Source: an uncultured Prevotella sp. (GTDB taxonomy: Bacteria; Bacteroidota; Bacteroidia; Bacteroidales; Bacteroidaceae). From it: a stretch of 64,000 nucleotides of DNA. A model generated the notes under the pieces. That model was not told where the DNA came from. It did no database searches and saw only the letters and a program-made list of their open reading frames with translations. The stretch lies in assembly GCA_900315545.1 (NCBI GenBank), contig OMZM01000003.1, forward strand, positions 1 to 64,000, read 5' to 3'. Positions 1,750 to 54,249 of the stretch are shown one piece after another (position 1 is the stretch's first letter; the number at the start of each line of letters is the position of its first letter). The position numbers were made by a program, and so were the translations under genes.

Positions 1750-2208
1750 AAAAAGACTAATCAATTTTTGCTCGTTTACTGTCGCGAGAATGCCCTCGAA
1801 ACCCGTTTCTGAAATCAAAGGGGCAAAATATGCCCAAAATTCGCATATACTTGTAATCGTCTGACAGTCAGGTTATTAACCGTAAATATAAGTCTTTTGT
1901 GCATAAAACGTATATGTTAAAATTGTCAAAGAGCATGTTTGACATTGTCAAACAGTGTGTTTGAGGCGGTCAGACATAGTGTTTGGGGGTGTCTGACATA
2001 CTGTTTCGCATGACGAAAAAGACGAAATAGGGGCGTCAAAGATACTCTTTGACAATTTTAACAGTTAGCAATGGTCTGAAAATTAACAGTATTTTGCACT
2101 TTCAGAGGCTATTCTGATTCTATTTGAACGGTTTTTCCCTGTCAAAATTTTTCATCATTTTTCGTCGCGAAGGAAAATCCTGATGAGTTTGGCACACTTT
2201 TTGCTGTG
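1750..2208 (+). repeat. Phased-palindrome intergenic repeat, copy 1
   Basis: First of five copies of a non-coding family in this window. The left arm starts at TAATCAATTTTTG and contains the hairpin GGGCA-AAATA-TGCCC and the palindrome CTGACAGTCAG. The core is bracketed by GTTAAAATTGTCAAAGA (1916-1932) and its reverse complement (2046-2062). Inside it, 17-bp palindrome units begin at 1926, 1948, 1970, 1992 and 2036, so steps are 22, 22, 22 and 44 bp. The right arm ends with a -24/-12 type element TTGGCACACTTTTTGCT at 2189-2205. No ORF is conserved between copies. The copy fills the gap between the GLUG-like gene and the subtilisin gene and points toward the latter. Confidence 0.9.
2189..2205 (+). 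promoter_or_regulatory. Sigma-54-like -24/-12 element at end of repeat copy 1
   Basis: TTGGCACACTTTTTGCT has GG and GC exactly 10 bases apart, as in the sigma-54 consensus TGGCAC-N5-TTGCW. It is 104 bases upstream of the subtilisin ATG at 2309. The phased palindrome array lies about 140-265 bp further upstream, a distance usual for enhancer sites. An ordinary Bacteroidetes -7 box (TATATTTG, 2288-2295) also sits closer to the gene, so the protease may have two promoters or only the latter. Confidence 0.45.
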
Positions 2209-2308
2209 AGAGCAAAAAGTGTGTTTCCGAGTGCTACGAAAAGGCGAAAAATTGTCGATATTGTTTATATATTGAGATGTTTTTCTTATATTTGCATCAT
2301 AAAAATTG

Positions 2309-4573
2309 ATGTCCATGAGCAGAAGAAACAATAGAAGCAAGGTTTACATATATGTTGCTACGGCTGCAATGCTGCTGTTTTCGCTGACTTCCGGCGCCCA
2401 GCGTGCCGCCTACGGCAAGATGTCGGCGTGGGTAAGGCAGATAGCCGTAGAACAGCAGAATGCACGTCAACGTGCGGGAACGCAGGATGGCAAGCAGAAA
2501 ACGACACTGAACGACAACCGCAGCAGGCTCTGTGCACTGATGAAGATTGACGGTCAGGCGGAGCAGGTGCTTGAGAAACACGGCTGCCGCGCACTTGCCA
2601 AGATAGGCAACGTGTATGTGGCAGACATTCCGCTGAACAGGCTGGCAAGTCTTTCTGCCGACAGCCGCGTGCTGAGGATTGAGGCACGACAGAGCAACAG
2701 GCTGCACATGGACACGACGGCGGCACTGATTGGCGCGACAAACATCTACAGCTCGCTGCACCTGCCACAGGCTTTCACAGGACGGGGCGTCGTAGTGGGC
2801 GTGCAGGACGTGGGCTTCGACCTGACGCATCCTAACTTCTACAGCAGAGACTTGAAGGAGTACAGGATAAAAACGTTCTGGGACATGCTTTCTACCGATA
2901 CCATCGGCAGCAACACATACGTAGGACGGACATACAACGGCAAGGAGGAAATACTGAAATACGGACACTCGCGCGACAATCTGCTTATCTCGCACGGCAC
3001 ACACACGGCAGGAACGGCAGTGGGAAGCGGCTACAACACCGACTTCAGGGGCGTGGCGTGGGAAAGCGACATCTGCCTCGTGAACAATGCCGTAGGCACC
3101 GACCTGGTGCTGATAGACAGTGCCGACGTCTACAAATATACATACGCCACCGACGTGCTGGGATTTAAATACATGTTCGACTATGCCGACCGCATGGGCA
3201 AACCGTGCGTGGTGTCGTTCAGCGAGGGCTCGCATCAGGACCTCAGGGGCGACGACATACTGTTCTACGAGGCTCTGGAAGCGCTGTCGGGACCAGGACA
3301 CGTGATTGTGGCATCGGCTGGCAACGAGGGCACGCAGACGTCGATGGTGCCGAAACCGGCAGGCATGGAGAAGGCTGGCACATACATCATCAGCGAAGGA
3401 AAGAGGGTTGGCGTAACGGCTGAGTCGACCGACGACATGTATATAAACACGCTGCTGCTAAGGGAAACAGGCAAGATTGACACGATAAGGATAAGTACGC
3501 GCGACGTTTTCGCGGCTGAAGACTCCGTATATGCAGACTCAATAACTACCGCCGACGGCAAGTATATAGTGGAAATACACGGTTTCAACTCGTGCTACGA
3601 CAAAGACATGAAGGCTTACGACATAATAGTCAGGGCTCCGAAAAACATAGGCAGAGAGCCGTATGTGTACATGGAATGTGAAGGAATGGATGTTGACGCT
3701 ACTATGTATATCAGTTCGGGATATTTCTACAACTACATGTGCAGCAGGAAAACCGGCAACGCCGTAAACGGACACAACATACACTCGCCCGGCAGTGCAC
3801 CGTCGGTGATATGCGTGGGAGCAACGGCTTACAGGGAAAGATACACCAACTATAAGGGCGAGATGCAGGTGTCGAACGCCGTAAGACCAGGCATGAGGGC
3901 TCACTACTCGTCGATGGGACCGACGCTCGACGGCAGAATAAAACCAGACGTAGTGGCTCCGGGAACGAACATCATATCGTCGTACAGCAGCTACTATATT
4001 GAGGCTAACCCAGAGGCAGAAGACCTTAATGCCGACGTGAGCCGATTCGGATTTAACGGAAGGATGTACTCGTGGAACGCAAACACAGGTACGTCGATGG
4101 CGACACCTATCGTTGCCGGAACGATAGCACTGTGGCTGCAAGCACGACCAGACATGACGGGCGAAGACGTGATGGACGTGCTGCGACACACCTGCGACCA
4201 GCCAGACCCGCATCTGGACTACCCGAACAACGAATATGGCTACGGTGCCATAAACGCATACACCGGACTGCTGTATGTTTTGGGACTGGACACAACGCTG
4301 GGACTGGACAAAATGTCGACTGAACAGCCACAAAAGGCACGATTTGCACTAAACGGCAAGAAACTGGAGATTGTCTTCGACAACGAAAACGGTATGGACA
4401 GCAACGCAGGAACGCTGACGATATACAGTCTGGACGGAAAGAAAATGATTTCTACAAACATTGATGCCAACCACAATGAAGTGGACATGAGCATGCTGAA
4501 GAGCGGTGTCTACGCCGTGCAACTGCAAACAGGCGACACCAAAACGACAGGCTCAACACTCATTAGACTGTAA
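2309..4573 (+). CDS. Secreted subtilisin-like serine protease (S8) with type IX sorting tail
   Basis: About 754 aa. The ATG at 2309 is preferred over the TTG at 2306; ATG 2315 is also possible. A signal peptide (MSMSRRNNRS..., hydrophobic core, SGAQ) is followed by a pro-region. The S8 catalytic triad is visible: Asp in VGVQDVGFDLTHPNF (about residue 167), His in SHGTHTAGT (about 229) and Ser in NTGTSMATPIVAG (about 596). A long insert between His and Ser probably forms a beta-rich accessory domain. The last 70 residues (LTIYSLDGKKM ... GVYAVQLQTGD ... LIRL) match the type A sorting domain of the type IX secretion system. The protein is therefore probably exported to the surface and degrades extracellular protein. 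Repeat copy 1 occupies its upstream region. Confidence 0.9.
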   Translation: MSMSRRNNRSKVYIYVATAAMLLFSLTSGAQRAAYGKMSAWVRQIAVEQQNARQRAGTQDGKQKTTLNDNRSRLCALMKIDGQAEQVLEKHGCRALAKIGNVYVADIPLNRLASLSADSRVLRIEARQSNRLHMDTTAALIGATNIYSSLHLPQAFTGRGVVVGVQDVGFDLTHPNFYSRDLKEYRIKTFWDMLSTDTIGSNTYVGRTYNGKEEILKYGHSRDNLLISHGTHTAGTAVGSGYNTDFRGVAWESDICLVNNAVGTDLVLIDSADVYKYTYATDVLGFKYMFDYADRMGKPCVVSFSEGSHQDLRGDDILFYEALEALSGPGHVIVASAGNEGTQTSMVPKPAGMEKAGTYIISEGKRVGVTAESTDDMYINTLLLRETGKIDTIRISTRDVFAAEDSVYADSITTADGKYIVEIHGFNSCYDKDMKAYDIIVRAPKNIGREPYVYMECEGMDVDATMYISSGYFYNYMCSRKTGNAVNGHNIHSPGSAPSVICVGATAYRERYTNYKGEMQVSNAVRPGMRAHYSSMGPTLDGRIKPDVVAPGTNIISSYSSYYIEANPEAEDLNADVSRFGFNGRMYSWNANTGTSMATPIVAGTIALWLQARPDMTGEDVMDVLRHTCDQPDPHLDYPNNEYGYGAINAYTGLLYVLGLDTTLGLDKMSTEQPQKARFALNGKKLEIVFDNENGMDSNAGTLTIYSLDGKKMISTNIDANHNEVDMSMLKSGVYAVQLQTGDTKTTGSTLIRL

Positions 4574-4588
4574 AATCAAACGCAACAA

Positions 4589-4747
4589 TGCGCTTTCTGC
4601 GGGCAGAAACATACCAGTTCTGCGCTCACACGACAATAAAAGAAATTGAATTGATGCGACTTCGGTGGACATAAAACTAAAATACTGATGCCCGAAAAAC
4701 TATAAAAGATAACTGAAAGTCGCGCCTTCTGCTGGCAGAAACATGCT
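4589..4747. repeat. Two short related hairpin sequences
   Basis: GCGCTTTCTGCGGGCAGAAACAT (split here as GCGCTTTCTGCGG and GCAGAAACAT, 4590-4612) recurs imperfectly as GCGCCTTCTGCTG plus GCAGAAACAT at about 4724-4745. Each contains a TTCTGC/GCAGAA hairpin and is followed by a similar ACAATAAA stretch. They lie in the convergent gap between the subtilisin gene and the TPR gene. Function unknown; they may be remnants of a small repeated element. Confidence 0.4.
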
Positions 4748-4762
4748 GATACAACAATAAAC

Positions 4763-4800
4763 AAACGAGGCTTGCCACTGCGACAAGCCTCGTTTATTTG
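4763..4800. terminator. Bidirectional terminator
   Basis: A 12-bp perfect stem AAACGAGGCTTG/CAAGCCTCGTTT with a 9-base loop has T-rich sequence on both sides (TATTTG one way, GTTTATTG the other). It separates the convergent subtilisin and TPR genes and can serve both. Confidence 0.85.
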
Positions 4801-4841
4801 TTTGCTAAATACTAATTTAAATATGTAATTCCTATATCACA

Positions 4842-6266
4842 TTATTCCGTTGCTTCCGTTGTTTCCTCCTGTGCCTCGTAAGCCTGCTTTGCAACTGGGT
4901 CGTTTGGATCGAGTTCGTAGAGCTTGTTGAGATAAACCTTAGCCTTCTCGAAATCGTCTCTGCCTGCCCAGAATGTATAGCCTGCTATCTTGTAAGCACG
5001 CTTCAGATAAGCTGTCTCGCTTTCATCGCGGTCGGCTTTGTTTTCAAGCAAGCTTATCACCTTGTCGTAGTTCTCGACAGCAATGTCGTCGTATTCTGCC
5101 GTGTAGGCATTGTTTCCCTTCTGCAGGTATGCCCATGCAGCAATCTGAGGATACTTATTTGCTACGTCATCGAAGACGCTCATGGCTTTCTTGAAGTTAG
5201 TTTCCTTGTCAATGCCGTCCTTAACCATTTCCATGTATATGGCAGCCAGCGAGTTGTAGTCTGACGGTTTAGCCTCGTTATTGAGGTTGAGGTACTTCTG
5301 CATGAGGTCGAGACTCTTGCTCATATCGTCCTTACCCTTGTAAGAATCAGACATATAGCGATATGCTTCAACCTTCTCAGCATCTTCCTTCAGTGCTGTT
5401 TCAAACTGCTTGATAGCCTCGTCATACTGCGCGTTGCCATTCAGCGCACGACCATAGTTGATATAGTCGGTAGCATTTTTCTTGCCATCGTCGTTGAACA
5501 CCATCTGCGCATACTTGAGTGCATCTGCATTTTCGCCCAAGTCGATAGCATTGATGACTGCAAGACGTGTCAGCGCGAGGCTGTTAGGATGGATGTTGAC
5601 ACCCTGCTTTGCAACGTCGAGAGAGAGTTTCTTGTTACCTAAGATGTTGGCTGTGAAGACATACTCAACAAACTTTTCTTCGTCGATAGACTCCTTCTTT
5701 GCCTTCTGGAAGAACTCAAGCGCCTTGTCGTAGTTCTTTGTGAGATAGTTAGAGTGTCCAAGTTCAGCCTCAACTGGGAAGTTAGGCATTATTCGGCGCA
5801 AATCGTTCAGCACGCGCTCAGACTCCTGTGGGTTTACCTTACGGAAGACATTGGCATAGCGGAGATAGCCCTCTGCATTCTGCGGCTCGGCTGAAATAGC
5901 ACGGTCGTACCAGTTGGCAGCAGCGCCACCATCGTCTTTCAGTGCCTCAACGTCGCCTTTCAGAATGAAAGCATTGCCATAGTTAGGGTTCTTTTTCAGT
6001 GCTAAATCAGCACATTCAACAGCCTTGTCGAACAGTTTTTCGCTGAGATAAGTGTTTCCGAGAGCAACGAGAGCCTCAGGATTCTTCTTGAAAGTCTTGA
6101 TGTACTCTTTTGCGCCCTTTACTGCTTCAACACTGGCGTAGTCAGACTTGATAGCCGACACAACAGGCACAAGCATTGTCTTGTAGTCTACATCCTGTGC
6201 CATAGCTGGCGATGACAATCCAATCATCATCGCACCCGCAATCAGATATTTATTAAAGTTCTTCAT
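4842..6266 (-). CDS. Periplasmic tetratricopeptide-repeat protein
   Basis: 474 aa. A signal peptide (KYLIAGAMMIGLSSPAMAQ) is followed by roughly ten TPR helices-turn-helices, visible as runs such as ALVALGNTYLSEKLFDKAVE, GNAFILKGDVEAL, YINYGRALNGNAQYDEAIKQF and AWAYLQKGNNAYTAEYDDIA. No catalytic domain is present. It is the last gene of the TonB/ExbB/ExbD operon, 20 bases after the small TonB-domain gene. TPR proteins of this kind commonly act as scaffolds, so it may link the TonB machinery to periplasmic or outer-membrane partners. That role is inferred from position. Its signal-peptide region is nearly the same as that of the gene just upstream (see findings). Confidence 0.85.
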   Translation of the reverse strand: MKNFNKYLIAGAMMIGLSSPAMAQDVDYKTMLVPVVSAIKSDYASVEAVKGAKEYIKTFKKNPEALVALGNTYLSEKLFDKAVECADLALKKNPNYGNAFILKGDVEALKDDGGAAANWYDRAISAEPQNAEGYLRYANVFRKVNPQESERVLNDLRRIMPNFPVEAELGHSNYLTKNYDKALEFFQKAKKESIDEEKFVEYVFTANILGNKKLSLDVAKQGVNIHPNSLALTRLAVINAIDLGENADALKYAQMVFNDDGKKNATDYINYGRALNGNAQYDEAIKQFETALKEDAEKVEAYRYMSDSYKGKDDMSKSLDLMQKYLNLNNEAKPSDYNSLAAIYMEMVKDGIDKETNFKKAMSVFDDVANKYPQIAAWAYLQKGNNAYTAEYDDIAVENYDKVISLLENKADRDESETAYLKRAYKIAGYTFWAGRDDFEKAKVYLNKLYELDPNDPVAKQAYEAQEETTEATE

Positions 6267-6286
6267 ATTCTATATTTGTTTTATAG

Positions 6287-6700
6287 TTATTTCTGCAATT
6301 TAAAACTTAATGGTAAAACATATTTTACCCGCACTGGCTTACCGGACATGGTTCCTGGATTCCAATTCGGCATCGCCTTTACTAAGCGGACTACCTCTTC
6401 CGTGAGAGAAGAGTGAGGGCTCTTCAGAGCCTTGATATTTGAGACAGAACCGTCTTTCTCAATAACGAAACTAACAATAACCTTGCCTTCGATGTTGTTT
6501 TTTACGGCTTCTTTAGGATAACGCATGTTCTGAGCAAGCCACAAATTGATATCGCCTTTGAATGTAGGCTGCATCTCTGGATTCCCGAAAACCTTTTTAG
6601 ACTCAATGTTTGTTATGCTGTCTACATCCTGCGCCATAGCAGGCGATGACATTACTATCATCATCAGTCCAGCAAGAATATATTTGCAAATGTTCCTCAT
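6287..6700 (-). CDS. Stand-alone periplasmic TonB C-terminal domain protein
   Basis: 137 aa: a cleavable signal peptide (residues 1-23, ending SSPAMAQ) joined directly to a TonB C-terminal domain (IEGKVIVSFVIEKDGSVS ... PVRVKYVLPLSFKLQ). It lacks the N-terminal membrane anchor and the charged spacer of a working TonB, so it cannot couple to ExbB/ExbD in the usual way and should be free in the periplasm. The TonB part closely resembles the full-length TonB encoded at 7916-8749, while the signal peptide resembles that of the TPR protein downstream. It has its own -7 box (TACTTTTG, 6742-6749 on the minus strand). It might bind TonB boxes of receptors or modulate TonB; this is inference. Confidence 0.82.
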   Translation of the reverse strand: MRNICKYILAGLMMIVMSSPAMAQDVDSITNIESKKVFGNPEMQPTFKGDINLWLAQNMRYPKEAVKNNIEGKVIVSFVIEKDGSVSNIKALKSPHSSLTEEVVRLVKAMPNWNPGTMSGKPVRVKYVLPLSFKLQK

Positions 6701-6741
6701 TGGCTATTTCGTTATTTATACATTCAGTACTGTTTGCAGTG

Positions 6742-6749
6742 CAAAAGTA
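6742..6749 (-). promoter_or_regulatory. Bacteroidetes -7 box ahead of the short TonB-domain gene
   Basis: TACTTTTG followed by C on the minus strand, 42 bases before the ATG. The -33 element is weak. It suggests that the last two operon genes can be transcribed separately. Confidence 0.5.
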
Positions 6750-6808
6750 AAAAATTATATCTTTCTATCGTATTTTATTTATATATTATTGTACACACGC
6801 GTGTAAAC

Positions 6809-7768
6809 TTATTGTTTTTTAACATTAACCGTACGTATATTTATCTCTCCACGATACGGCAGCAGTCCTGACTTGAATATTATCATCTGCCCCTTTGGAC
6901 CTGCTATGAAGTTGGCAAAACTCCATGGCAATGCGCGCTGGGGGTCTATGGCAATGGCATAGAGCGTGCGGACAAATGGGTAGCGACCATCGAGCAGATA
7001 GCCCTGATAGGGTTTCCAACTGTTCTGTGGCGTGGCTTTATCTAGTTTTGTCACCTTCATGACATGAATGTTCTTCTTGAATGTGGTGTTGGTGGTGTCG
7101 CGACGGTCGTTCAACCAGTTGGAACCAATAACACCAATGGCATTTGGCGTCTTGTCGACATATTCTATGACATCCTTGCTCGTCTTTGCTGCAACGATAT
7201 TAGGACTGTCTATCGGCTTTCCACCCAATATGGAGTCAACGACATAGTGCAGCGTTGCAGACCGCTTGTTGTCGAACACCACATCTATCATTCCACGCTT
7301 AGAACCTGGATATATCTCGCTCCAGTCTCGCGCAGAACCACTCAATATGCGCTTGACATCGCTGACGGTTATACATGTATCGGTGTTATTCTTGTTTACG
7401 ATTAGTGCAAGTCCGTCGTAACCTATCGGCATAACAACCGGTATCTGCTTCTTCGTGCGGAAGTAAGCCATCTCTGGCTCAGTCAAACCACGCGACGTTA
7501 TGAGCAGACAGGTTTTCAAGTCTTTAATCTTGTTCAGTCCTTCTATCTCGTCGGTATAGTTAGCCTGTAGATGCGCCTGAGGGTATTGAAACTCAAACTG
7601 TTCGCGCAGTTCTTCTACTATTGGACTGAAACTCTCATCGGCATAAAATGCTATCGTACCCGATGTCTTGGTGTCCGTCCTGCCGCCACGATTCTTCTTA
7701 ACACAAGATGTGAACGAAAAGCATACTACCAATAACGACAAGACTGTATAAGAAAATGTTTTTTTCAT
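6809..7768 (-). CDS. PstS-like periplasmic substrate-binding lipoprotein
   Basis: About 319 aa when started at the Met of MKKTFSYTVLSLLVVCFSFTSC; the upstream start at 7792 would spoil the signal peptide. The lipobox FTSC gives a lipidated Cys at residue 22. The fold is that of a type 2 periplasmic binding protein: GTIAFYADESFSPIVEELRE at the start, VMPIGYDGLALIVNKNN, a YPFVRTLYAI motif and ANFIAGPKGQMII near the end are typical of PstS/phosphate-binding family members. It lies inside the TonB operon rather than with pstCAB genes. In Bacteroidales this arrangement recurs, so a role with TonB-dependent uptake or sensing is plausible, but the ligand is unknown. Confidence 0.82.
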   Translation of the reverse strand: MKKTFSYTVLSLLVVCFSFTSCVKKNRGGRTDTKTSGTIAFYADESFSPIVEELREQFEFQYPQAHLQANYTDEIEGLNKIKDLKTCLLITSRGLTEPEMAYFRTKKQIPVVMPIGYDGLALIVNKNNTDTCITVSDVKRILSGSARDWSEIYPGSKRGMIDVVFDNKRSATLHYVVDSILGGKPIDSPNIVAAKTSKDVIEYVDKTPNAIGVIGSNWLNDRRDTTNTTFKKNIHVMKVTKLDKATPQNSWKPYQGYLLDGRYPFVRTLYAIAIDPQRALPWSFANFIAGPKGQMIIFKSGLLPYRGEINIRTVNVKKQ

Positions 7769-7829
7769 TCTGTCAGCTTTAAATGAAAGCATCTAATAAA
7801 ATAGGGAATATAACCATTATTTATTATTT

Positions 7830-7893
7830 AAGGTGCGTTCTATAAATCTGTGTAACAACATAGAGTCATTAACATATCTATAGAACCCACCTT
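7830..7893 (-). promoter_or_regulatory. Long inverted repeat between tonB and the PstS-like gene
   Basis: AAGGTGCGTTCTATA (7830-7844) and TATAGAACCCACCTT (7879-7893) match in 14 of 15 positions with a 34-base loop. It has no T-run, so it is not a standard terminator. In the operon mRNA it would fold in the 147-base tonB-pstS gap and could mark a processing or partial-attenuation point that sets the ratio of upstream to downstream products. Confidence 0.45.
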
Positions 7894-7915
7894 ATCTATA
7901 AGAGTTTATCGTAGC

Positions 7916-8749: not shown

Positions 8750-8777
8750 TTTATCTAATCGTTTTTAATATGTTATT

Positions 8778-10075: not shown

Positions 10076-10106
10076 AGCGATAAAATTTTAAAGGGTTAGC
10101 AAAAAA

Positions 10107-14924: not shown

Positions 14925-15380
14925 ACAGCAAAAAGTGTGCCAAACTCGTCAGAATTTTCTTTCGACCCGAAAAATGATGAAAAATTTTGACAGACAAAAA
15001 CTCTCCAAATAGAAATTTTTTAGCCTCCGAAAATGCTAAAATATGTAAAAATCATAGTCAGCGATAACTGTTAAAATTGTCAAAGAGTATCTTTGACGCC
15101 CCTATTTCGTCTTTTTCGCCATGCGAAACAGTATGTCAGACACCCCCAAACACTATGTCTGACCGCCTCAAACACACTGTTTGACAATCTCAAACATACT
15201 CTTTGACAATTTTAACACATGCGTTTTATGAGCAAAAGACTTATAATTGCGAATAACAAACTGACTGTCAGAGAATTACAGATGCTTGCGAATTTCGGGC
15301 GTATTTTGCCCCTCTGATTTCCGAAACGGGTTTCGCGGGCATTCTCGCGACAGTAAACGGGCGAAAAATGATTAAACCTT
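14925..15380 (-). repeat. Phased-palindrome intergenic repeat, copy 2
   Basis: Inverted relative to copy 1. Palindrome units begin on the plus strand at 15080, 15124, 15146, 15168 and 15190, giving steps of 44, 22, 22 and 22 bp, the mirror of copy 1. The bracketing inverted repeat GTTAAAATTGTCAAAGA/TCTTTGACAATTTTAAC is intact (15070-15086 and 15200-15216). The left arm of the element (here on the right) has CTGACTGTCAG at 15261 and the GTTTACTGTCGCGAGAATGC segment. The other end carries a sigma-54-like element. The copy fills most of the 795-base gap between the START-like gene and the tRNA. Confidence 0.9.
14928..14945 (-). promoter_or_regulatory. Sigma-54-like -24/-12 element at end of repeat copy 2
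   Basis: On the minus strand TTTGGCACACTTTTTGCT has GG and GC 10 bases apart. It reads toward the START-like gene, whose ATG is 148 bases on. A -7 box (TATTTTTG) for the housekeeping factor lies between. The palindrome array of copy 2 is upstream on the same strand. Confidence 0.45.
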
Positions 15381-24314: not shown

Positions 24315-24332
24315 TTTGGCACGGTATTTGCA
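24315..24332 (+). promoter_or_regulatory. Sigma-54 promoter candidate of trxA
   Basis: TTTGGCACGGTATTTGCA fits the sigma-54 consensus TTGGCACG-N4-TTGCW, with GG (24318-24319) and GC (24330-24331) exactly 10 bases apart. It begins just after the dnaE stop and about 46 bases before the trxA ATG. The sequence GAGTTTGGCACGGT is identical to the end of repeat copies 4 and 5, although no palindrome array is present here. No TAnnTTTG box fits better in this gap. Confidence 0.6.
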
Positions 24333-24377: not shown

Positions 24378-24692
24378 ATGGAAGTAAAAATCACAACAGA
24401 GAACTTTGAAGAATTGAAGAACGGCAACTTGCCATTAGTAGTTGATTTCTGGGCAACATGGTGCGGACCATGCAAGATGATTGCGCCTGTTATTGGCGAA
24501 TTAGCTGAAGAGTACGACGGACGCATCGTTGTAGGCAAGTGCGACGTTGAGGAGAACGACGACATTGCTATGGAATTTGGTATCCGCAACATCCCAACGA
24601 TACTGTTCTTCAAGAACGGACAGGTTGTAGACAAGATGGTCGGTGCTGCTCCTAAAGCTAAATTCCAGGAGAAGTTTGAGGCTCTGCTGTAA
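24378..24692 (+). CDS. trxA: Thioredoxin
   Basis: 104 aa. The active site WCGPC is at residues 28-32 within VVDFWATWCGPCKMIAPVIG, and the cis-proline loop is RNIPTILFF. It is a cytoplasmic disulfide reductase that supplies electrons to ribonucleotide reductase, peroxidases and methionine sulfoxide reductase. It has a separate promoter of sigma-54 type and a strong terminator. Confidence 0.97.
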   Translation: MEVKITTENFEELKNGNLPLVVDFWATWCGPCKMIAPVIGELAEEYDGRIVVGKCDVEENDDIAMEFGIRNIPTILFFKNGQVVDKMVGAAPKAKFQEKFEALL

Positions 24693-28853: not shown

Positions 28854-29308
28854 AAAACACTAATCAATTTTGGCTCATTTACTGTCGCGAGAATGCCCGC
28901 GAAAGTCGTTTCGGAAATCTGAGGGGCAAAATATGCCCAAAATCCGCACACATCTATAATTGTCTGACTGTCAGTTTGTTAATCGAAAACACAAGTCTTT
29001 CGCCCACAAAATGCATGTGTTAAAATTGTCAAAGAGTATGTTTGACATTGTCAAACACACTGTTTGAGGAGGTCAAACATAGTGTTTGAGAGTGTCAGAC
29101 GCTATGTCTGGCAAGCAAAAATGACGAAAAAGGCGCCTCAAAGATACTCTTTGACAATTTTAACAGTTGTGTCTGGTCTTGAAATTAACAGAATTTTACG
29201 ATTTCAGAGGCTGTTCCGATTCTATTTGAACGATTTTCCCCTGTCAAAAATTTTCATACTTTTCGGGCGCAAAAGAGAAATCTGACAAGTTTGGCACAGT
29301 TTTTGTAC
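28854..29308 (+). repeat. Phased-palindrome intergenic repeat, copy 3
   Basis: Units begin at 29029 (TCAAAGAGTATGTTTGA), 29051 (TCAAACACACTGTTTGA), 29073 (TCAAACATAGTGTTTGA), 29095 (TCAGACGCTATGTCTGG) and 29138 (TCAAAGATACTCTTTGA). Steps are 22, 22, 22 and 43 bp. This is the cleanest array of the five: units 2, 3 and 5 have 7-bp perfect stems with a 3-base loop, and unit 4 shows a paired change (AA/TT to GA/TC) that keeps the palindrome. The right end TTGGCACAGTTTTTGTA has GG and GT 10 bases apart. The copy lies between the convergent nnr and PAP2 genes, so its promoter-like end would read antisense into the PAP2 gene. Confidence 0.9.
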
Positions 29309-33901: not shown

Positions 33902-33964
33902 TATTTTTACTGAAACAGACGACAGCATCACTTATGTTTTTACAGCAGTTCTGAAAGTGATGGC

Positions 33965-34030
33965 AAAAAAAATGGAGTGCCGCTGCACTCCCTACCTTTG
34001 TTAACCTTAAATCTAATACTATGAAAAACA
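33965..34030 (-). ncRNA. Candidate small RNA (about 65 nt) with own promoter and terminator
   Basis: On the minus strand TTGT-N19-TATCTTTG (box at 34036-34043) is followed about 7 bases later by a short transcribed stretch (CATAGTATTAGATTTAAGG, then TTAACAAAGG). It ends in GGAGTGC-AGCG-GCACTCC and a run of eight T (33965-33972). No ORF of useful size is present. Promoter, spacing and terminator all agree on an RNA of 60-70 bases. The region lies between the nucleotidase pair and gdhA and faces away from gdhA. Confidence 0.65.
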
Positions 34031-34035
34031 CGATG

Positions 34036-35811: not shown

Positions 35812-35812
35812 A

Positions 35813-38640: not shown

Positions 38641-39093
38641 CATACAAAAACCGTGCCAAACTCTCACGGATTTTCATTCTGCCCGGGAAATGATGAAAAA
38701 TTTTGACAGAGAAAAACTCTCCAAATAGAATATTTTTAGCCTCCGAAAGTGCTAAAATATGTAAAAATCAGTATCGTCGATAACTGTTAAAATTGTCAAA
38801 GAGTATCTTTGACACCCCTATTTCGCCTTTTTTGCCCTGCCAGACACAGTATCCAACACCCCAAAACACTATGTCTGACCTCCTCAAACACACTGTTTGA
38901 CAATCTCAAACATACTCTTTGACAATTTTAACATATACATTTCATGCACAGAAAGACTACGCACCACACTATCATATTGACGATCAGACAATTACAGACA
39001 CTATCGAAATTTGGGCATATTTTGCCCCTTTGATTTTCAAAACGACTTTCGCGGGCACTCACGCAACAGTAAAACAGCAAAGATTGATTATAC
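38641..39093 (-). repeat. Phased-palindrome intergenic repeat, copy 4
   Basis: Inverted orientation. On the plus strand units begin at 38796, 38840, 38862, 38884 and 38906, that is 44, 22, 22 and 22 bp. Unit 4 (38840) is the most degenerate. The bracketing inverted repeat is intact (GTTAAAATTGTCAAAGA at 38786-38802, TCTTTGACAATTTTAAC at 38916-38932). On the minus strand the end TTTGGCACGGTTTTTGTA has GG and GT 10 bases apart and would read toward the 3' end of the aquaporin gene. The left arm is more diverged than in other copies. The copy fills most of the gap between the aquaporin gene and the toxin-antitoxin pair. Confidence 0.88.
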
Positions 39094-44479: not shown

Positions 44480-44494
44480 TTTTCTACTTTCAGA

Positions 44495-45709: not shown

Positions 45710-45747
45710 ATTATTATATTGTTAAGTATTAATTCTACAAAAAACAT

Positions 45748-47991: not shown

Positions 47992-48061
47992 AATGATTTC
48001 ATTTAATGTTTTATTATATATTATATGTATATTGTTTTTCTAATTCCGTTTATTTATACCG

Positions 48062-49900
48062 TTATCCTGCTATTGCGTCGACAAACACCGTCAGAGCCAG
48101 CATGTCGGCTGCGCCACCCGGTGATATATTATCTGTTATATAGCGTTCATTCATTGCTTTCAGTTCGTCTATACTGAAGTTTTCCAACATTTGTCGTGCT
48201 TCCTGCTTAACACGCTTTGCCACATCTGCTCCCTTCCTGTGATAAATATTTGTGTCGTCTATCTGCTGCATGATAGCAAGAAGAGTCTGCAATATTCCTT
48301 CTTCCACATGCTTATGCTGTCTGTAGAAAGGCAACCAACCGTCGAAAAGCAGTCTGTATCCTTCCTTTGCAGCTGCCAGAGCGCCTGACACTTGCGGATA
48401 GCGGCGACTTACAGCAGCACCATGAGTGTTTTCCGCAGGTTGGACTGATGACGCCAACAACATAATTTCCTGCTGCAAACGGGCAGCAGATATTCTTGCG
48501 TCGGCATCGATTCGGCACTCTCCATAAGTGTGTTTATCGTTACATGTACGTTGCATGCCTTGTCTTAATACATTATTATATAATAAGTAAGACGCTGCTA
48601 CGATAGTCAGTCCCATTGCAAACAGTGCTCCCTTGTGTGTGTTGACGCCCTTTGTCGCTTCCAGCATTGCCTTTTCAGCATTCTCGCCTATTTGTTTCAG
48701 GGTATCAAACGGCGGTATTTTCTTTTGAAAACCAACCTTCGCCAGACTAAGAAAATACGGTCGTAGAGCCTCTATGCTGCGCATCATGATGTTGTAGTCC
48801 ATATCATGATGCGCACCATTGTCGTGTCTGTCCACGAGTCCGGGCTTCGGTGTAGCATCGAGTTCAGTTATCAAGGCTTTTACGGCAAACTGCGACAATA
48901 CGAAAGGCACCGTCGTGTCTGGCACATATTTAATGGCAGAATACAAATCGCCATCGGCAATATACTGTCTGACCAGCGATGCACTGACCACGCGGTCGGT
49001 CTTCAATCGCGGTATTTCAACAACTTCTATGCCTTGCTTTGGCAGCAGTGTGCTCATCAATTCATTATATCTACTTGTCAGAGCGTCTGCAGGTTCACTG
49101 CCAACAAAGCGTTTGCTGACATTCAGAGCCGTTGCTATATGCTTGCAGAATATGTCTAAATCGAGTGTGATTTGTGTATCGGTTGCATCGTCAAGGCGTT
49201 TGAGGAAGTAAGTTGGGAAAGTTGTCTGCGAAATCTGATAGTCGCTGCCCTTACAAACGGTAACGTTGTCTATGTCGCTGCAACCGTCTGCTATCATTGC
49301 AAGACGCTCTGCATAACTGAACAGAGATACGTCTTCCTTCACAACTATAATAAAAAGATGCTCCACCTGTCGTGCCGCATGCTCCACCAGATAGCGATGT
49401 CCAAGTGTAAAGGGGTTGGCATTCATCACTATCGCACCAACCACGTCGCAATCTTTTTGCAATCCGACCTTTTCACGTTCAGAACTAAGATAATCTTTAT
49501 ATGTTCTTATAGACTGCCTGCCACTTTCCATCAGTATCGCCTCTTCCGACGTGGCAAGCGTAGCAAACGACATGCTCTCGAACACACTCCTGTTGCTTGG
49601 TTTGGTGAATACTCGCACGCTGTCATAACCATTGCTTACGGCATGACTCATAAGGTGCGATATCAGTCTGCTGCTAAAGCCTTCCTCACGCATATTCTCA
49701 TCTACGGCAATGCACTTTATGACATTTCCCGACAGTCCTCCGCCTGCCAGGATACAGTCATCGTCGCCGGCAAAGACGGCAGCATAGTAATCCATGTCTT
49801 CAGCCATACGCAAACCATTGCTTTCAAGAAAGGCACTGATCCTTTGCCTGTATGTTTTTACAGTCAGAGGCATCTCGCGTATTTCGTAGTCCGTGTACAT
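48062..49900 (-). CDS. citC: Fused [citrate (pro-3S)-lyase] ligase and triphosphoribosyl-dephospho-CoA synthase (CitC-CitG)
   Basis: 612 aa, two enzymes in one chain. Residues 1-~335 are CitC: a GNAT-like N-terminus (CIAVDENMREEGFSSRLISH) and a nucleotidyltransferase domain with NPFTLGHRYLVEHA (T/HxGH motif). This part acetylates the lyase cofactor at the expense of ATP. Residues about 340-612 are CitG: KALITELDATPKPGLVDRHD NGAHHDMDYNIM (split) and THKGALFAMGL, which makes 2'-(5''-triphosphoribosyl)-3'-dephospho-CoA. In most bacteria citC and citG are separate, or citG is joined to citX. It follows citX by 38 bases. Confidence 0.9.
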   Translation of the reverse strand: MYTDYEIREMPLTVKTYRQRISAFLESNGLRMAEDMDYYAAVFAGDDDCILAGGGLSGNVIKCIAVDENMREEGFSSRLISHLMSHAVSNGYDSVRVFTKPSNRSVFESMSFATLATSEEAILMESGRQSIRTYKDYLSSEREKVGLQKDCDVVGAIVMNANPFTLGHRYLVEHAARQVEHLFIIVVKEDVSLFSYAERLAMIADGCSDIDNVTVCKGSDYQISQTTFPTYFLKRLDDATDTQITLDLDIFCKHIATALNVSKRFVGSEPADALTSRYNELMSTLLPKQGIEVVEIPRLKTDRVVSASLVRQYIADGDLYSAIKYVPDTTVPFVLSQFAVKALITELDATPKPGLVDRHDNGAHHDMDYNIMMRSIEALRPYFLSLAKVGFQKKIPPFDTLKQIGENAEKAMLEATKGVNTHKGALFAMGLTIVAASYLLYNNVLRQGMQRTCNDKHTYGECRIDADARISAARLQQEIMLLASSVQPAENTHGAAVSRRYPQVSGALAAAKEGYRLLFDGWLPFYRQHKHVEEGILQTLLAIMQQIDDTNIYHRKGADVAKRVKQEARQMLENFSIDELKAMNERYITDNISPGGAADMLALTVFVDAIAG

Positions 49901-49938
49901 ATTGCTGAGGGCTTGTTTATATCTTGAATATGCGTTTA

Positions 49939-50460
49939 TTATTTCTTTATACTGGAATAAGAATTCACGAGGTGTTCTATCTCTGCCATCAGTTCCTCCT
50001 GCGTATGTGTTTTGTTACGCATGCAGTAGCGTGCTTCATGCTCACACAGCAGGCAGCGTCGTGGCGGCATACCCACATCTGTGCGCGACATGGGCGTCCC
50101 GTCGGCATTGATAACGTCGACGTCGAAAAGTCTTCCCAGTGTATGTTCCTCTTCCAGGCGGCATGTCATCATCTTAGATGTCGCTGCGTCGGTGCCGACA
50201 ACAAACATTGCCTCATATCCTGTAGGCAGGTCGTGCACCTCAGTATGGCAAATTCCACTGTCGGCAAACACGTCGTTGAGAGCCGACGCTGCTGCTTCGC
50301 CTACCGTCAGCGACAAAGAATTACGCTTGACCTTTCCCGGCATTATCACCGTTAGGCATACGAGAGTTTTTTCGGGATATTCCCGAAGAAGCTGCATCTG
50401 GCGACTGTGTCGCTCGTCGCGACTTGCAAGGAGTTGTTCAAGCGTAATCTCCATAAACAT
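49939..50460 (-). CDS. citX: Holo-citrate lyase synthase (apo-citrate lyase phosphoribosyl-dephospho-CoA transferase)
   Basis: 173 aa. The N-terminus TLEQLLASRDERHSRQMQLL REYPEKTLVCLTVIMPGKVK (two parts) and the middle GYEAMFVVGTDAATSKMMTC RLEEEHTLGRLFDVDVI (two parts) are CitX signatures. It transfers the prosthetic group to the acyl carrier protein CitD. The Cys-rich C-terminus (RRCLLCEHEARYCMRNKTHT) is usual for the family. It lies 32 bases after citF. Confidence 0.92.
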   Translation of the reverse strand: MFMEITLEQLLASRDERHSRQMQLLREYPEKTLVCLTVIMPGKVKRNSLSLTVGEAAASALNDVFADSGICHTEVHDLPTGYEAMFVVGTDAATSKMMTCRLEEEHTLGRLFDVDVINADGTPMSRTDVGMPPRRCLLCEHEARYCMRNKTHTQEELMAEIEHLVNSYSSIKK

Positions 50461-50492
50461 ACTAACTATATGGTTCTTCTTTATTTACCGTG

Positions 50493-52028
50493 TCATCCTA
50501 CTATGTTCTTGATAACATCCTGAACGCTGCCGTCGCGGTTCATTACCACACCAACCACTTTGTCGCCGAAAGGCAATGGTGCCGGTGTGCCGATTATCTT
50601 TTCTGCGCGTTCCTTCAGTTCGTTCAGAGTAACGAGTTTCAGTCCGGCTTCTTTCAGGCGCTCGGCAATTTCCGGTCGTTTCGGGTTTACTGCAATGCCA
50701 TATTCAGTAACCACCACGTCGATAGTAGAGCCCGGTGTTATCAGCGTCGTTACCTCGTCGACAATACACGGAATGCGTCCGCGCAGCAATGGACATACTA
50801 TTATCGACAGAGCCGAGTCGGCAGCCGTGTCTGGATGTCCTCCAATGGCTCCCCTGATGATGCCGTCGCTGCCTACGAGCACGTTGACATTAAAGTTGAC
50901 GTCTACCTCGAGGGCAGAGAGTATGACCATGTCGAGATAGTGAGTGGCAGAGCCTTGTTCTTCGGCACTTGCATATTCGCACGACGACACTTCCTGATGC
51001 ATGGGGTCGTTCTTCATCGATTCGGCAGCCACCTTGTCGAACGACTGCACGTCGATGAGTCTCTCTATGAGTCCTTCCTCGTGCATCTTTACCATGTGGG
51101 CTGTAATTCCGCCGAGCGCAAACGATGCATGTATGCCTTGCTTTATCATTTCTTCGCGTATAAACTTAACTGCTGCGAGCGATGCACCTCCCGAACCTGT
51201 CTGTATAGAGAATCCTTCCTTGAAGTAGCCGCTGTTGATAATGACTTTTGCCGCCTGCTGTGCAAGCAGTATGTCGCGCGGGTTCTTCGTGTCGCGGATG
51301 GCTCCCGATGCTATCTTCGACGAGTCGCCGACAGAGTCCACCTCTACTACGAAGTCTACGTTGCGTTCTGATATTGAGTTCGGGGTGTTTGGATATTTCA
51401 CGAGGTCGTCGGTCAGTATTACTACCTTGTCGGCATACTGAGCGTCGGGCAGTGCATATCCGAGCGAGCCGCAGATAGACTTGGCATTCTCAGAGCGCGA
51501 GTATCCACACGCGTTGCCCAGTGGGTCGGCAGACGAAGCGCCGATGAAAGCCACGTCGATATGCAGGTCGCCATTTGCTATGGCTGCACCTCTCGATCCG
51601 TGAGAGCGGAAAACGACAGGCTCGTCCATGAGTCCGTGCGACACTTCCGCAGCCAGTTTGCCGCGCAGTCCGCTGGTAGAGATGCGTGTTATTACTCCGT
51701 TTCGTATGTGTTCTATCAGTGGTTCGTGCACGTCGATGAGGCTCGACGAAGCCAGATGGAGGTTTTTGTAGCCCATTTCGGCTAACTTTGCCACTACCAT
51801 GTTGATGACCTTGTCGCCGCTGCGGAAGTGGTGGTGGAACGAGATGGTCATTCCGTCTTTCAGTCCACTCTTGCGTATTGCATCTTCGAGGCTAACAACC
51901 TTCGTGCTCTCTTTCTGGTATTCCGAGCGTGGTGTAGCCACTTTGTCGGATGTGCCCTTGAATGTTTCTTTTCCCATTCGCTCAGCAGCATTGCTGATGA
52001 GCTGCTGTCTTTCTTTCAGTGTACTCAT
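50493..52028 (-). CDS. citF: Citrate lyase alpha subunit (citrate:acetyl-ACP transferase)
   Basis: 511 aa, the usual length. SLEDAIRKSGLKDGMTISFH HHFRSGDK (split), VISHGLM-like and GGITAHMVKMHEEGLIERLI DVQSFD (split), and RIPCIVDEVTTLITPGSTID VVVTEYGIAVNP (split) mark the CoA-transferase family subunit CitF. It moves the acyl group to citrate (or citramalate) on the carrier protein. Its start overlaps the stop of citE (TAATG). Confidence 0.94.
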   Translation of the reverse strand: MSTLKERQQLISNAAERMGKETFKGTSDKVATPRSEYQKESTKVVSLEDAIRKSGLKDGMTISFHHHFRSGDKVINMVVAKLAEMGYKNLHLASSSLIDVHEPLIEHIRNGVITRISTSGLRGKLAAEVSHGLMDEPVVFRSHGSRGAAIANGDLHIDVAFIGASSADPLGNACGYSRSENAKSICGSLGYALPDAQYADKVVILTDDLVKYPNTPNSISERNVDFVVEVDSVGDSSKIASGAIRDTKNPRDILLAQQAAKVIINSGYFKEGFSIQTGSGGASLAAVKFIREEMIKQGIHASFALGGITAHMVKMHEEGLIERLIDVQSFDKVAAESMKNDPMHQEVSSCEYASAEEQGSATHYLDMVILSALEVDVNFNVNVLVGSDGIIRGAIGGHPDTAADSALSIIVCPLLRGRIPCIVDEVTTLITPGSTIDVVVTEYGIAVNPKRPEIAERLKEAGLKLVTLNELKERAEKIIGTPAPLPFGDKVVGVVMNRDGSVQDVIKNIVG

Positions 52029-52918
52029 TATTCTACGTCCTCCTTCTTTAATACTCCCGATGCTATTGCCAAATCGATTGTGCGCTGTGCCCTTATGACT
52101 ACTGGTCGGTCTACCATCTTACCGTTAACTGCTATCACTCCGGAGCCTCGTTTCTCTGCTTCCTTAATTGCAGCGACAACAGCCATAGCCTTGTCGATGT
52201 CTTTCTGTTTCGGTGCAAACACCTCGTTGACGATTTCTATCTGTCGCGGATTGATGATAGACTTGCCGTCGAAGCCGAGTGTCTTTATGAGTTCCACTTC
52301 CTTGCGGAAAGTCTCCATGTCGTTGAGGTTGCTGTACACGGTGTCGAGTGCATCTATGCCTGCGGCGCGTGCAGCCACGACTATCTGCTGACGTGCGAAG
52401 AGCAGCTCCGTGCCTTCTGGCGTGCGCTGTGTCTTCAGGTTGGCGCAGTAGTCTTCGGCTCCGAGCGCTATGCCCATCATTCGCTTTGAGGCTATGGCTA
52501 TCTCGTAAGCATTGACGATGCCGAGAGTGCTCTCTATGGCAGCCATAATCTTTGTTCTGCCTACGCAGCCTATTTCCTCTTCCACCTTTTCGATTTCTCT
52601 TTCCACCTCGCGCACTTCCTCTGCAGTCTCGGTCTTTGGCATTCGTATGACGTGAACGCCAGCCTTTACCACAGCCTCAACGTCTTTCTTGCCGTAGGGC
52701 GTGTTGAGCGGATTTATTCTCACCACCATCTCCGTGTCTCCGTAGTCGATGGTTTTCAGCGCGTTGTGTACGAGCAGGCGCGCAGCATCCTTCTCTGCCA
52801 TCGTAACAGAGTCTTCAAGGTCGAGCATGATAGAGTCCGGACCGTAGATGAAAGCATCCTGCATCATGCCGGGATTGTTGCCCGGCACAAACATCATTGT
52901 TCTTCTTAGTCGTTGCAT
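52028..52918 (-). CDS. citE: Citrate/citramalate lyase beta subunit (citryl-ACP lyase)
   Basis: 296 aa. RTMMFVPGNNPGMMQDAFIY GPDSIMLDLEDSV (split) is the CitE/HpcH signature with the metal-binding Glu-Asp, followed by MVVRINPLNTPYGKKDVEAV and AAIESTLGIVNAYEIA. It splits citryl-ACP into oxaloacetate and acetyl-ACP, or citramalyl-ACP into pyruvate and acetyl-ACP. The two activities cannot be told apart from sequence alone. It lies 25 bases after citD. Confidence 0.94.
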   Translation of the reverse strand: MQRLRRTMMFVPGNNPGMMQDAFIYGPDSIMLDLEDSVTMAEKDAARLLVHNALKTIDYGDTEMVVRINPLNTPYGKKDVEAVVKAGVHVIRMPKTETAEEVREVEREIEKVEEEIGCVGRTKIMAAIESTLGIVNAYEIAIASKRMMGIALGAEDYCANLKTQRTPEGTELLFARQQIVVAARAAGIDALDTVYSNLNDMETFRKEVELIKTLGFDGKSIINPRQIEIVNEVFAPKQKDIDKAMAVVAAIKEAEKRGSGVIAVNGKMVDRPVVIRAQRTIDLAIASGVLKKEDVE

Positions 52919-52943
52919 ATCAGTGTGTTTTTGTTTTGTTTCT

Positions 52944-53222
52944 CTATTTCCAAACGTCTTTTCCCGTAGCCCTGACGGCAGCGGCAGTTACTCTCGCTTT
53001 AATGGTGCAGTCGAGTGCGCCTTTGTCGGTGGCTTTCACGTCAGCCTTGTCGATGCCAAGCTGCGCAAGCGTTTCGGTTATTACTTTCTTTATCTGGTCG
53101 CCAAACTGATAGGCAACGCTGCTCTCGAGGTCAATGTTCAGAGCCTCTGTCGTTGCAGGCGAAATCTGAACAAGTATGTCGCCGGACTCGAGTGTGCCGG
53201 CAAAAGCTGTCTTTATGTCCAT
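52944..53222 (-). CDS. citD: Citrate lyase gamma subunit (acyl carrier protein)
   Basis: 92 aa. The modified Ser lies in AGTLESGDILV (Ser13, matching Ser14 in E. coli CitD). The following ISPATTEALNIDLESSVAYQ FGDQIKKVI (split) is typical. It carries the phosphoribosyl-dephospho-CoA arm on which acetyl and citryl groups are held. It is the first gene of the operon. Between its ATG and the promoter lie about 385 bases of leader that include a cobalamin riboswitch. Confidence 0.93.
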   Translation of the reverse strand: MDIKTAFAGTLESGDILVQISPATTEALNIDLESSVAYQFGDQIKKVITETLAQLGIDKADVKATDKGALDCTIKARVTAAAVRATGKDVWK

Positions 53223-53343
53223 GTCGTATATTGTTTTAAAATTGTTGTTGTCTCTTCTTGTGTGTCAGTAAGCAAGCAAGCCAATACAACAGATGCAAAC
53301 ATACGTCATGCCTGATGTATGTTCTCTCCGCACCTGTCTTACG

Positions 53344-53420
53344 CTCCCGCGAATAGACACCGCATTATATCCCAGTAAAACATTATTTATTTCTTACCTT
53401 TCAACTCCTATTCCCGGGAG
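53344..53420 (-). promoter_or_regulatory. Possible riboswitch expression platform
   Basis: Just after the aptamer, CTCCCGGGAATAG (53408-53420 as read on the minus strand) can pair with CTATTCGCGGGAG (53344-53356) in 12 of 13 positions. A second hairpin AACATAC/GTATGTT follows near 53295-53316. Neither has a T-run, so control may act on RNA stability, Rho access or translation. Which state binds B12 cannot be decided here. Confidence 0.45.
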
Positions 53421-53429
53421 TATCAACGC

Positions 53430-53610
53430 TAATATGAATCGGCAGGTCTTCTGACTTACTCATCGACTGCACCTTCCCGTCGTGTGCGACAGTGGTTTGT
53501 CTTGCAGTCGAAAAAATGAGTTTACAGCAGCGGGTACTGTCCAGGTCTTTCACCTGATTCCCTTTTAATCTCTCATAGCATACTGCTAATTGGCAAGAAC
53601 CAAATTCATG
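53430..53610 (-). ncRNA. Cobalamin riboswitch ahead of citDEFX-citCG-acn-icd
   Basis: On the minus strand the aptamer runs AAAAGGGAA, TCAGGTGAAAGACCTG, GACAGTACCCGCTGCTGTAA, then ACCACTGT, CGGGAAGGTGCAGTCG and AGTCAGAAGACCTGCC. These are the conserved core blocks of the B12 aptamer, including the B12 box (53441-53457 on the plus strand). It starts a few bases after the predicted transcription start, so it forms the very 5' end of the mRNA. It controls a citrate-lyase type operon, not a cobalamin synthesis or transport gene. Confidence 0.93.
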
Positions 53611-53613
53611 CGG

Positions 53614-53644
53614 CAAAAATAATACTTTTATTTTACATACCAAA
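53614..53644 (-). promoter_or_regulatory. Promoter of the riboswitch-led cit operon
   Basis: On the minus strand TTTG (53644-53641), 19 bases, TATTTTTG (53621-53614): perfect consensus. The start site falls at about 53608, at the edge of the aptamer. Confidence 0.87.
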
Positions 53645-53794
53645 CATTTTGACAGAAAATTTTAAAGTATATCATACATTTTGTCTATGTAAATATAAAT
53701 AGGTTATACATATTGTATAGAAATACTGTATTGCCTATGAACGATATTTCTCTTATTTGCTTTTTGCAGCTGCAATGCTATTTACTGAACTGAA

Positions 53795-54249
53795 AAAATG
53801 CTAATCAATTATTGCCCGTTTACTGTCGTGAGAATGCCCGCGAAAGCCGTTTCGGAAATCAAAGGGGCAAAATATGCCCAAATCTCGCATACATCTGCAA
53901 TCGTCTGAGAGTCAGTATGATAGCACGATATATAAGGCTTTTATGCTGAAAACACAAGTGTTAAAATTGTCAAAGAGTGTGTTTGAGATTGTCAAAGAGT
54001 GTGTTTGAGGAGGTCAGACATAGTGTTTGAGGGTGTCGGACGCTATGTCTGTCAAGGCAAAAACGATGAAATAGGAGCCTAAAAGATACTCTTTGACAAT
54101 TTTAACAATTAGCAACAGGTTGGAAATTAACAGAAATTTGCACTTTCGAGGGCTGTAAAAAATCTATTTGAACGTTTTTTCTCTGTCAAAATTCTTCATC
54201 ATTTTTCGTATCGAAGGAAAATTCTGATGAGTTTGGCACGGTTTTTGTA
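53795..54249 (+). repeat. Phased-palindrome intergenic repeat, copy 5
   Basis: Units begin at 53970, 53992, 54014, 54036 and 54080, that is 22, 22, 22 and 44 bp. Units 1 and 2 are identical (TCAAAGAGTGTGTTTGA). The left arm keeps GGGCAAAATATGCCC; CTGAGAGTCAG replaces the CTGACAGTCAG palindrome. The right end TTGGCACGGTTTTTGTA has GG (54235-54236) and GT (54247-54248) 10 bases apart and reads toward the MarR gene, whose ATG is 174 bases on. The copy lies in the divergent gap between the cit operon and the MarR gene. Confidence 0.9.

Follow-up and report, generated by a model that had tools for sequence, protein, structure and literature searches.

The window analysed here is a stretch of 64,000 nucleotides (positions 1 to 64,000 of the forward strand of contig OMZM01000003.1) from the genome of an uncultured Prevotella sp. 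(GCA_900315545.1), and it carries five copies of an intergenic repeat of about 450 bp, hereafter the A element. Each copy holds an array of 17-bp palindromic dyads laid out on a 22-bp grid. Arrays of this geometry recur throughout the source genome in two dyad classes, A and B, on one grid; they are regularly spaced across the two classes, they are under selection in place, and one relative has further classes on that grid. It is the array that matters here, the 450-bp repeat being one of its carriers. The features of the five copies in the window are as follows.

1758..2208 (+): copy 1, A element with left arm, bracketed array, right arm and sigma-54-like end; sharp ends in an alignment of 105 copies
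1916..2062 (+): array of copy 1, with brackets at 1916-1932 and 2046-2062
1926, 1948, 1970, 1992, 2014 and 2036 (+): starts of the 17-bp slots of the copy 1 array, the slot at 2014 being degenerate
2188..2203 (+): sigma-54-like -24/-12 motif of copy 1, TTTGGCACACTTTTTG, reading outward; 0.01 expected per window
14925..15380 (-): copy 2, A element; sigma-54-like motif at 14929-14944 (-)
15070..15216 (-): array of copy 2, both brackets present
28854..29308 (+): copy 3, A element; sigma-54-like motif at 29290-29305
29019..29164 (+): array of copy 3; bracket distance 129, final step 43
38641..39093 (-): copy 4, A element; sigma-54-like motif at 38645-38660 (-)
38786..38932 (-): array of copy 4, both brackets present
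53795..54249 (+): copy 5, A element; sigma-54-like motif at 54232-54247
53960..54106 (+): array of copy 5, both brackets present

A preliminary description of this sequence had reported five copies with common arms and core, a bracketed and phased array and no open reading frame, and in these respects it was borne out. All five copies were recovered where it had placed them, copies 2 and 4 on the minus strand, and they align over left arm, core and right arm with a mean column identity of 85%; none of the genes called with a purpose-made gene caller overlaps any of them. The bracket word has ten matches in the window (≤2 mismatches) versus 0.03 in shuffled sequences, and dyads start at steps of 22, 22, 22 and 44 bp, the last step being 43 bp in copy 3, where the bracket distance is 129 versus 130. 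At step 22 a class-free scan of the window picked out these five places and no others; steps 18-21 and 23-27 gave none. The sigma-54-like right end, the second dyad class, the genome-wide spacing and the further classes in a relative, all described below, were absent from the preliminary description.

Copy number and anatomy of the A element

The source genome assembly comprises 56 contigs and 2,288,422 bases and is 92% complete. BLAST with copy 1 gave at least 40 near-full-length matches (the best 40 of 165 candidates) and 20 short ones, the bracket word matched 277 times genome-wide (≤2 mismatches) versus 7 times for a reversed control, corresponding to ~139 copies, and the right-end word matched 134 times versus 0 for its control. 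Anatomy was read from 105 copies that have both ends in place and pass a profile score (107 were used for the orientation count below); this set leaves out truncated and B-type copies and those whose right end differs. In these, conservation starts sharply near TAATCAATTTT and stops sharply a few bases past TTTGGCACNNTTTTTG. The array opens with the bracket GTTAAAATTG, continues with six 17-bp slots at exact 22-bp steps and closes with CAATTTTAAC; the slot consensuses are TCAAAGAGCATGTTTGA (slot 1), TCAAACACACTGTTTGA (slot 2), TCAGACATAGTGTTTGG (slot 3), TCGGACACTGTGTTTTG (slot 4) and TCAAAGATACTCTTTGA (slot 6), slot 5 being degenerate, and the class A dyad has the form TCAAACA-N3-TGTTTGA (7-3-7). 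Bracket distance, measured in 119 copies, is 130 in 92, 129 in 24 and other in 3. The 22/22/22/44 phase first seen in the window is constant across over 100 copies, which excludes random spacing among copies.

Part of the array is duplicated internally at L042 (contig C9) and L111 (C28), with bracket distances of 165 and 144. Contigs C2, C8, C12, C16, C17, C21, C22, C23 and C36 end or start within a copy, indicating that the assembly breaks at this repeat. Degenerate hexamer runs resembling GGGAAC, GATAAC or GTTAAC lie on one or both sides of the A copies L088, L092, L137 and L191, and also flank the solo right-end motifs L061 and L062.

A second dyad class on the same grid

Class B has the dyad TTACA-N7-TGTAA (TTACARR-N3-YYTGTAA) and lies on the same 22-bp grid as class A. 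Nine copies are hybrids: B dyads lie between the A-type left end and right arm, and slot 6 keeps the A type. The B word TTACANNNNNNNTGTAA occurs at 77 places in the genome versus 2 for its control, many of them grouped 4-5 to an array at the 22-bp step; these arrays lie between A copies and have no visible A arms, and an array was present at 15/16 B loci fetched. Judged by eye, and in part among the arrays listed, stand-alone B arrays have no common arms.

A class-free scan of 910,565 unique bases of the 2,288,422 in the genome, picked around copies and in large gaps, detected 154 arrays at step 22 (127 A, 17 B and 10 mixed), among which there was no third dyad class. Other steps in the same scan yielded 0 (steps 18, 19, 23 and 26), 1 (steps 20, 24 and 25) or 2 (step 21). 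A looser scan of 348 kb of gaps, whose output includes background lines (7 expected per pass), found five further A arrays and two B arrays. No isolated A dyad was seen in the own-genome loci fetched, the sole candidate being part of a copy cut by a contig end; one isolated B dyad was seen there, within a gene.

Near-regular spacing across classes

Across 11 contigs (1.22 Mb) chosen by length and array number, 96 A and B arrays define 85 intervals with a mean of 12.25 kb, a median of 11.3 kb and a coefficient of variation (CV) of 0.374; hybrids are counted here as A, C17:146623/146954 as one place, and C22:19581, a lone dyad within a gene (L200), is omitted. A single interval of the 85 is shorter than 6 kb, versus 33 expected and a minimum of 19 in 10,000 uniform simulations, and an earlier, incomplete list from 27 contigs had given 1/86. 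The spacing extends across classes: none of the 14 B arrays tested comes closer than 6,053 bp to an A array, where chance would place 6.3 within 4 kb. A model combining a 6-kb exclusion zone with an exponential tail has a mean CV of 0.50 and is too irregular (P = 0.004), so the upper tail of the observed intervals is short as well.

Selection on individual copies

In 36 sister pairs of A copies (mean divergence 16%), the halves of slots 1 and 2 each show 4/504 changes (0.8%), those of slot 6 15/504 and those of slot 3 38/504, versus 182/898 in spacers and, overall, 18-20% in slots 4 and 5, spacers and both arms. The retention of slots while arms and spacers diverge indicates selection on individual copies after their separation. 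Slots 1, 2 and 6 are clearly constrained and slot 3 partly so, and slot 4 varies nearly like the arms. The sigma-54-like motif (1/504) and the brackets (~3%) also change little, a figure that is inflated because most A copies were gathered through patterns for the bracket and the right end. The searches made no use of slots 1 and 2, except that the final seven bases of the bracket are the first half of slot 1; seven bracket bases are likewise the last half of slot 6.

Selection on the dyad had been proposed earlier on the grounds that base changes in one half are often matched in the other. The selection holds; the matching does not. Among the 105 full copies, slots 1, 2, 3 and 6 have no double (compensatory) changes, slot 4 has 13 such cells and slot 5 has 3; Watson-Crick counts in A units are at or near the expectation for independently varying halves; and position 6 of slot 1 is unpaired in 104/105 copies, most commonly as G/G. 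Mismatches in slots 3-4 are mostly G-T on the plus strand. The preliminary description had counted a lack of paired changes against its own proposal of a functional array, and such changes are indeed absent from the 105 copies. Their absence fits a DNA site better than an RNA helix, and it removes the main support for the row of five small RNA hairpins that had also been considered.

The independence of A half-sites and the phase held rigidly over an empty slot point to dimeric DNA-binding proteins assembling on the array, as do the lack of isolated A dyads and the swapping of dyads on a fixed grid. From its sequence, a row of sites for dimeric proteins thus seems the best reading of the array, in line with the initial proposal, and the layout also appears to be as novel as was then suggested, given that we recognised no description of such arrays in the open-licence literature searched. 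The related statement that such proteins would line one face of the helix is approximate only: the 22-bp step slightly exceeds two helical turns, and half-site centres alternate at ~10 and ~12 bp.

Arrays in relatives, viruses and plasmids

The strict A pattern was found in 0/118 relatives (71 of the same genus and 47 of the same order). Among named genomes it occurs once in RUG13423 (Bacteroidales), and one full A copy lies on a 4-kb contig (L192) of RGIG5082, filed as Paludibacteraceae. Mis-binning is possible for both; horizontal transfer would be the other explanation for the Paludibacteraceae-filed copy. Nine of the 71 same-genus relatives have 3 or more forward matches to a two-unit B pattern, where controls have ≤2, and the seven of them for which matches were listed have dyad variants of their own; the 47 other relatives have ≤2 matches per strand.

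A class-free scan of 586 kb of relative G028 detected 32 arrays at step 22 versus 0-4 at each of 14 other steps. All but one singleton (31/32) fall into six recurring classes: TAAAATAGSCTATTTTA (14 arrays), CAAAGTTAWTAACTTTG (9), and TTACA/TGTAA, TTACC/GGTAA, GTACGTGNCGTTCGGAC and TGATTAGGGCCTAATCA (2 each). Five of the six are 7-3-7 palindromes, GTACGTGNCGTTCGGAC being the one that is not palindromic. Class TAAAATAGSCTATTTTA is nearly confined to G028, with 136 forward matches there, 3 in G029 and none in any of the other 117 genomes. Several G028 arrays of class CAAAGTTAWTAACTTTG carry outer inverted half-sites (CAAACGG / CCGTTTG) on the grid, similar to the A brackets. With placement restricted to intergenic gaps, 3/30 mixed-class intervals in G028 are shorter than 6 kb versus 8.2-8.7 expected (P = 0.005-0.008), and the same test applied to the interval CV (0.71) gives only P = 0.03-0.05.

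Patterns for A matched 0 of 2.9 million viral contigs, in which four array patterns gave one match overall, and blastn against plasmid and phage records returned no match. One B-like dyad pair at step 22 was seen in a viral contig (L273 361-399).

Possible roles of the arrays

Selection on each copy, together with near-regular spacing across classes, suggests that the arrays serve the chromosome along its length and not individual genes. Our leading reading, which we favour while holding it tentatively, is that the arrays are protein-docking blocks that keep the chromosome marked near-regularly, most likely for its architecture; its main rival is selfish spread with exclusion. Under the architectural reading, a dimeric, sequence-specific DNA-binding protein would occupy the 17-bp dyads (7-3-7), one per 22 bp, with the brackets as outer half-sites flanking the dimers, giving a cooperative nucleoprotein block of ~110-150 bp. 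The genome would maintain one block per ~12 kb, with classes A and B interchangeable and each having its own binder, and the blocks would serve chromosome architecture as anchors or loop contacts, or by hindering the diffusion of supercoils from one short domain to the next. Dyad sequences would change between species while the grid and the wide spacing persist, and class A would have spread here as a 450-bp element that also bears a sigma-54-like promoter motif, from which transcription may start.

Several points weigh against architecture. No binder was found, clustering of 922 predicted proteins gave no convincing paralogous family, and mild symmetry persists in class B, where the halves of 66 units agree at positions 5-7 in 23 versus 16.6 expected (P = 0.03). 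That excess is due to position 7 (39/66 versus 26.6 expected, P = 0.0015); a palindromic helix would give the same, which speaks mildly against full independence of the halves. The contigs are unordered, and the class-free scan covered few of the stretches between close copies, where arrays of other classes could hide. Class-free scans of relatives covered G028 and G024 only, both chosen for B-type matches, and in 200 kb of G024 step 22 does not clearly stand out, with 3 places versus 3 at step 21 under the same threshold. Many species may lack arrays or use other classes, since the B pattern reaches 3 forward matches in no more than nine of the 71 same-genus relatives. Array positions are not conserved beyond chance between our genome and G028 (6/62 array-adjacent genes versus 31/390 others, P = 0.62, among 854 own proteins from overlapping loci, some counted twice), which is odd for a fixed architecture. 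Finally, with its ~450 bp, sharp ends and arms and ~140 copies, the A element has a mobile look.

The protein clustering also returned HU-like, HIRAN-like and four-helix-bundle-like pairs, as we provisionally name them. No isolated operators near a regulator gene were present in the own-genome loci examined.

The mobile look would be explained if the arrays were selfish elements resembling miniature inverted-repeat transposable elements (MITEs), with a transposase that binds the array internally and avoids insertion of copies near one another, an origin that we consider unlikely, though a serious contender. Target immunity is known from Tn3, Tn7 and Mu and would produce wide spacing; array positions differ between species; and the strict A pattern is absent from the 118 relatives, yet present in one copy each in two named genomes. 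However, no terminal inverted repeats were found, the ends being unrelated by eye in the 105-copy profile and inverted flank correlation staying at or below z 2.9, and 102 copies gave no target-duplication signal (best z 3.2 among thousands of stretches). A MITE with terminal repeats or target duplications was rejected for lack of signal in the copies examined. Moreover, the exclusion spans classes of unrelated sequence, stand-alone B arrays are without shared arms by eye, arms decay while slots persist, unlike in dead MITE copies, and a simple exclusion zone is too irregular for the low CV observed.

Two described families of repeats are closest to such elements. The BrickBuilt MITE of Porphyromonas gingivalis is likewise intergenic, its tandem array being enclosed by a leader and a tail; it has 23-nt direct repeats without spacers, insertion sequence (IS)-like terminal repeats and 19 copies, and by our reading its consensus is not a 7-3-7 dyad (PMC4596501). 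The present arrays differ in having dyads on a 22-bp grid and in numbering ~140 copies plus another class. No array at step 23 was found in the window or in the 910,565 bases scanned, and terminal repeats as named for BrickBuilt were not seen by eye at the element ends. Repetitive extragenic palindromes (REPs) and bacterial interspersed mosaic elements, associated with RAYT transposases, are also high-copy intergenic palindromes that fall into several classes and vary among species (PMC3733652). They differ from the present arrays, which show an exact 22-bp phase, near-regular genome spacing and no Y1 transposase match; by eye, no constant tag of the REP type (GTAG/CGTC) stands beside the units shown. 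A RAYT-driven REP was rejected, PF01797 (Y1 transposase) having 0 matches in our 92% complete genome and 1 in G028.

Improbable as a general function, although it suits the A element, is a sigma-54 enhancer-promoter cassette in which the array would be the upstream site of an activator and the right-end motif would fire outward. The A right end, TTTGGCACNNTTTTTG, reads as a sigma-54-like -24/-12 motif. A bracket search of contigs 1-24 listed 62 copies with both brackets, in which this motif stands at a fixed place with 0-1 mismatch in 52 and 2-5 mismatches in the other 10; several A copies carry a clearly different right end. The genome encodes rpoN and has four activator matches (one strong, three weak), solo right-end motifs are found close to where other genes start, and NtrC/NorR-type sites resemble 7-3-7 dyads. 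NorR acts at norVW, a sigma-54 promoter with an upstream activator array, and the A element is similar in placing a row of 17-bp dyads upstream of a -24/-12 motif. Unlike norVW, however, the strict motif is missing within 450 bp of the stand-alone B arrays (0/15), gap B arrays (0/2) and G028 arrays (0/32) checked, and direction does not follow the genes. The 107 A copies counted lie in divergent (32) and convergent (23) gaps, in codirectional gaps with (23) or against (20) the genes, or are one-sided (9); the near-equal codirectional numbers indicate that element direction is independent of genes, and 45/104 copies face the far end of a gene. A single activator would also leave two dyad classes unexplained, and of 20 similar sites in relatives, none is followed by a thioredoxin-like gene. 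Given the motif-less arrays and the gene-independent direction, the cassette was rejected as a general function and kept for the A element only.

A sigma-54-like site, TTTGGCACGGTATTTG, also occurs at window positions 24315-24330 (+), ~47 bp ahead of a gene (24378-24692) called thioredoxin-like for its WCGPC motif; the idea that similar solo -24/-12 sites in relatives are trxA promoters was discarded on the same count of 20. No common function links ten genes located at the window copies or close to them. A cobalamin riboswitch (53424-53619, minus strand) adjoins copy 5, and an FopS-family small RNA (RF04319) lies at 33962-34031 (minus strand).

We think it quite improbable that the arrays are species-private marks of self-recognition or recombination that halt a translocating nuclease or guide DNA uptake, for which Chi and DNA uptake sequences are the model. 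Each of the two classes tested is almost confined to a single species, the arrays are spread along the genome, intergenic and orientation-free, and the single viral match to four patterns would fit such marks. Known marks, though, are single short words, whereas the arrays are phased, and by eye the A elements do not keep to one direction along contigs. No link to a nuclease, a helicase or DNA uptake was found, though no search aimed at one was made.

Least probable, and rejected as the main explanation because paired changes are absent, are rows of RNA hairpins acting as 3'-end stabilisers or terminators: each dyad could form a hairpin with a 3-nt loop, G028 arrays are often nearer 3' ends by eye, the G-T bias in slots 3-4 would be tolerable in RNA and B halves agree at position 7, but the constrained slots show no compensatory change, slot 1 retains its non-pairing position, the 22-bp phase is rigid even over the empty slot, A copies are found in more divergent than convergent gaps (32 versus 23), and no Rfam family matched at the copies.

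Comparison with sites that organise chromosomes and plasmids

The architectural reading has its nearest counterparts in matS/MatP, SlmA, Noc and parS/ParB, where dispersed palindromes bound by one dimeric protein contribute to chromosome organisation. In common with architectural sites, the arrays are genome-wide, intergenic and maintained by selection. The known sites are, however, single short sites with one conserved sequence, whereas the present system consists of phased multi-dyad arrays in several unrelated classes at near-regular spacing. Plasmid centromeres and iterons (ParR-parC, TubR and 22-bp iterons) are phased sites that build one nucleoprotein complex, but there is one per replicon, compared with over 150 arrays per chromosome here.

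A wider form of the architectural reading, which we regard as possible but more doubtful, is that ~12-kb marking by phased arrays is genus-wide and provides domain anchors or insulators, with binder specificity turning over between species and with geometry and wide spacing fixed. Our genome would then have been caught with A midway through replacing B, hybrid arrays included, in a bacterial counterpart of fast-evolving centromere and insulator systems. Even if the arrays proved to be selfish, exclusion between sequence-unrelated elements over at least 6 kb would be new to us. Bacterial chromosomes are organised into domains of roughly 10 kb. If the architectural reading is true, a near-periodic organisation of a bacterial chromosome would be visible in its sequence, with arrays differing among species; candidate domain boundaries could be listed from sequence, and what sets ~10-kb domains would become testable.

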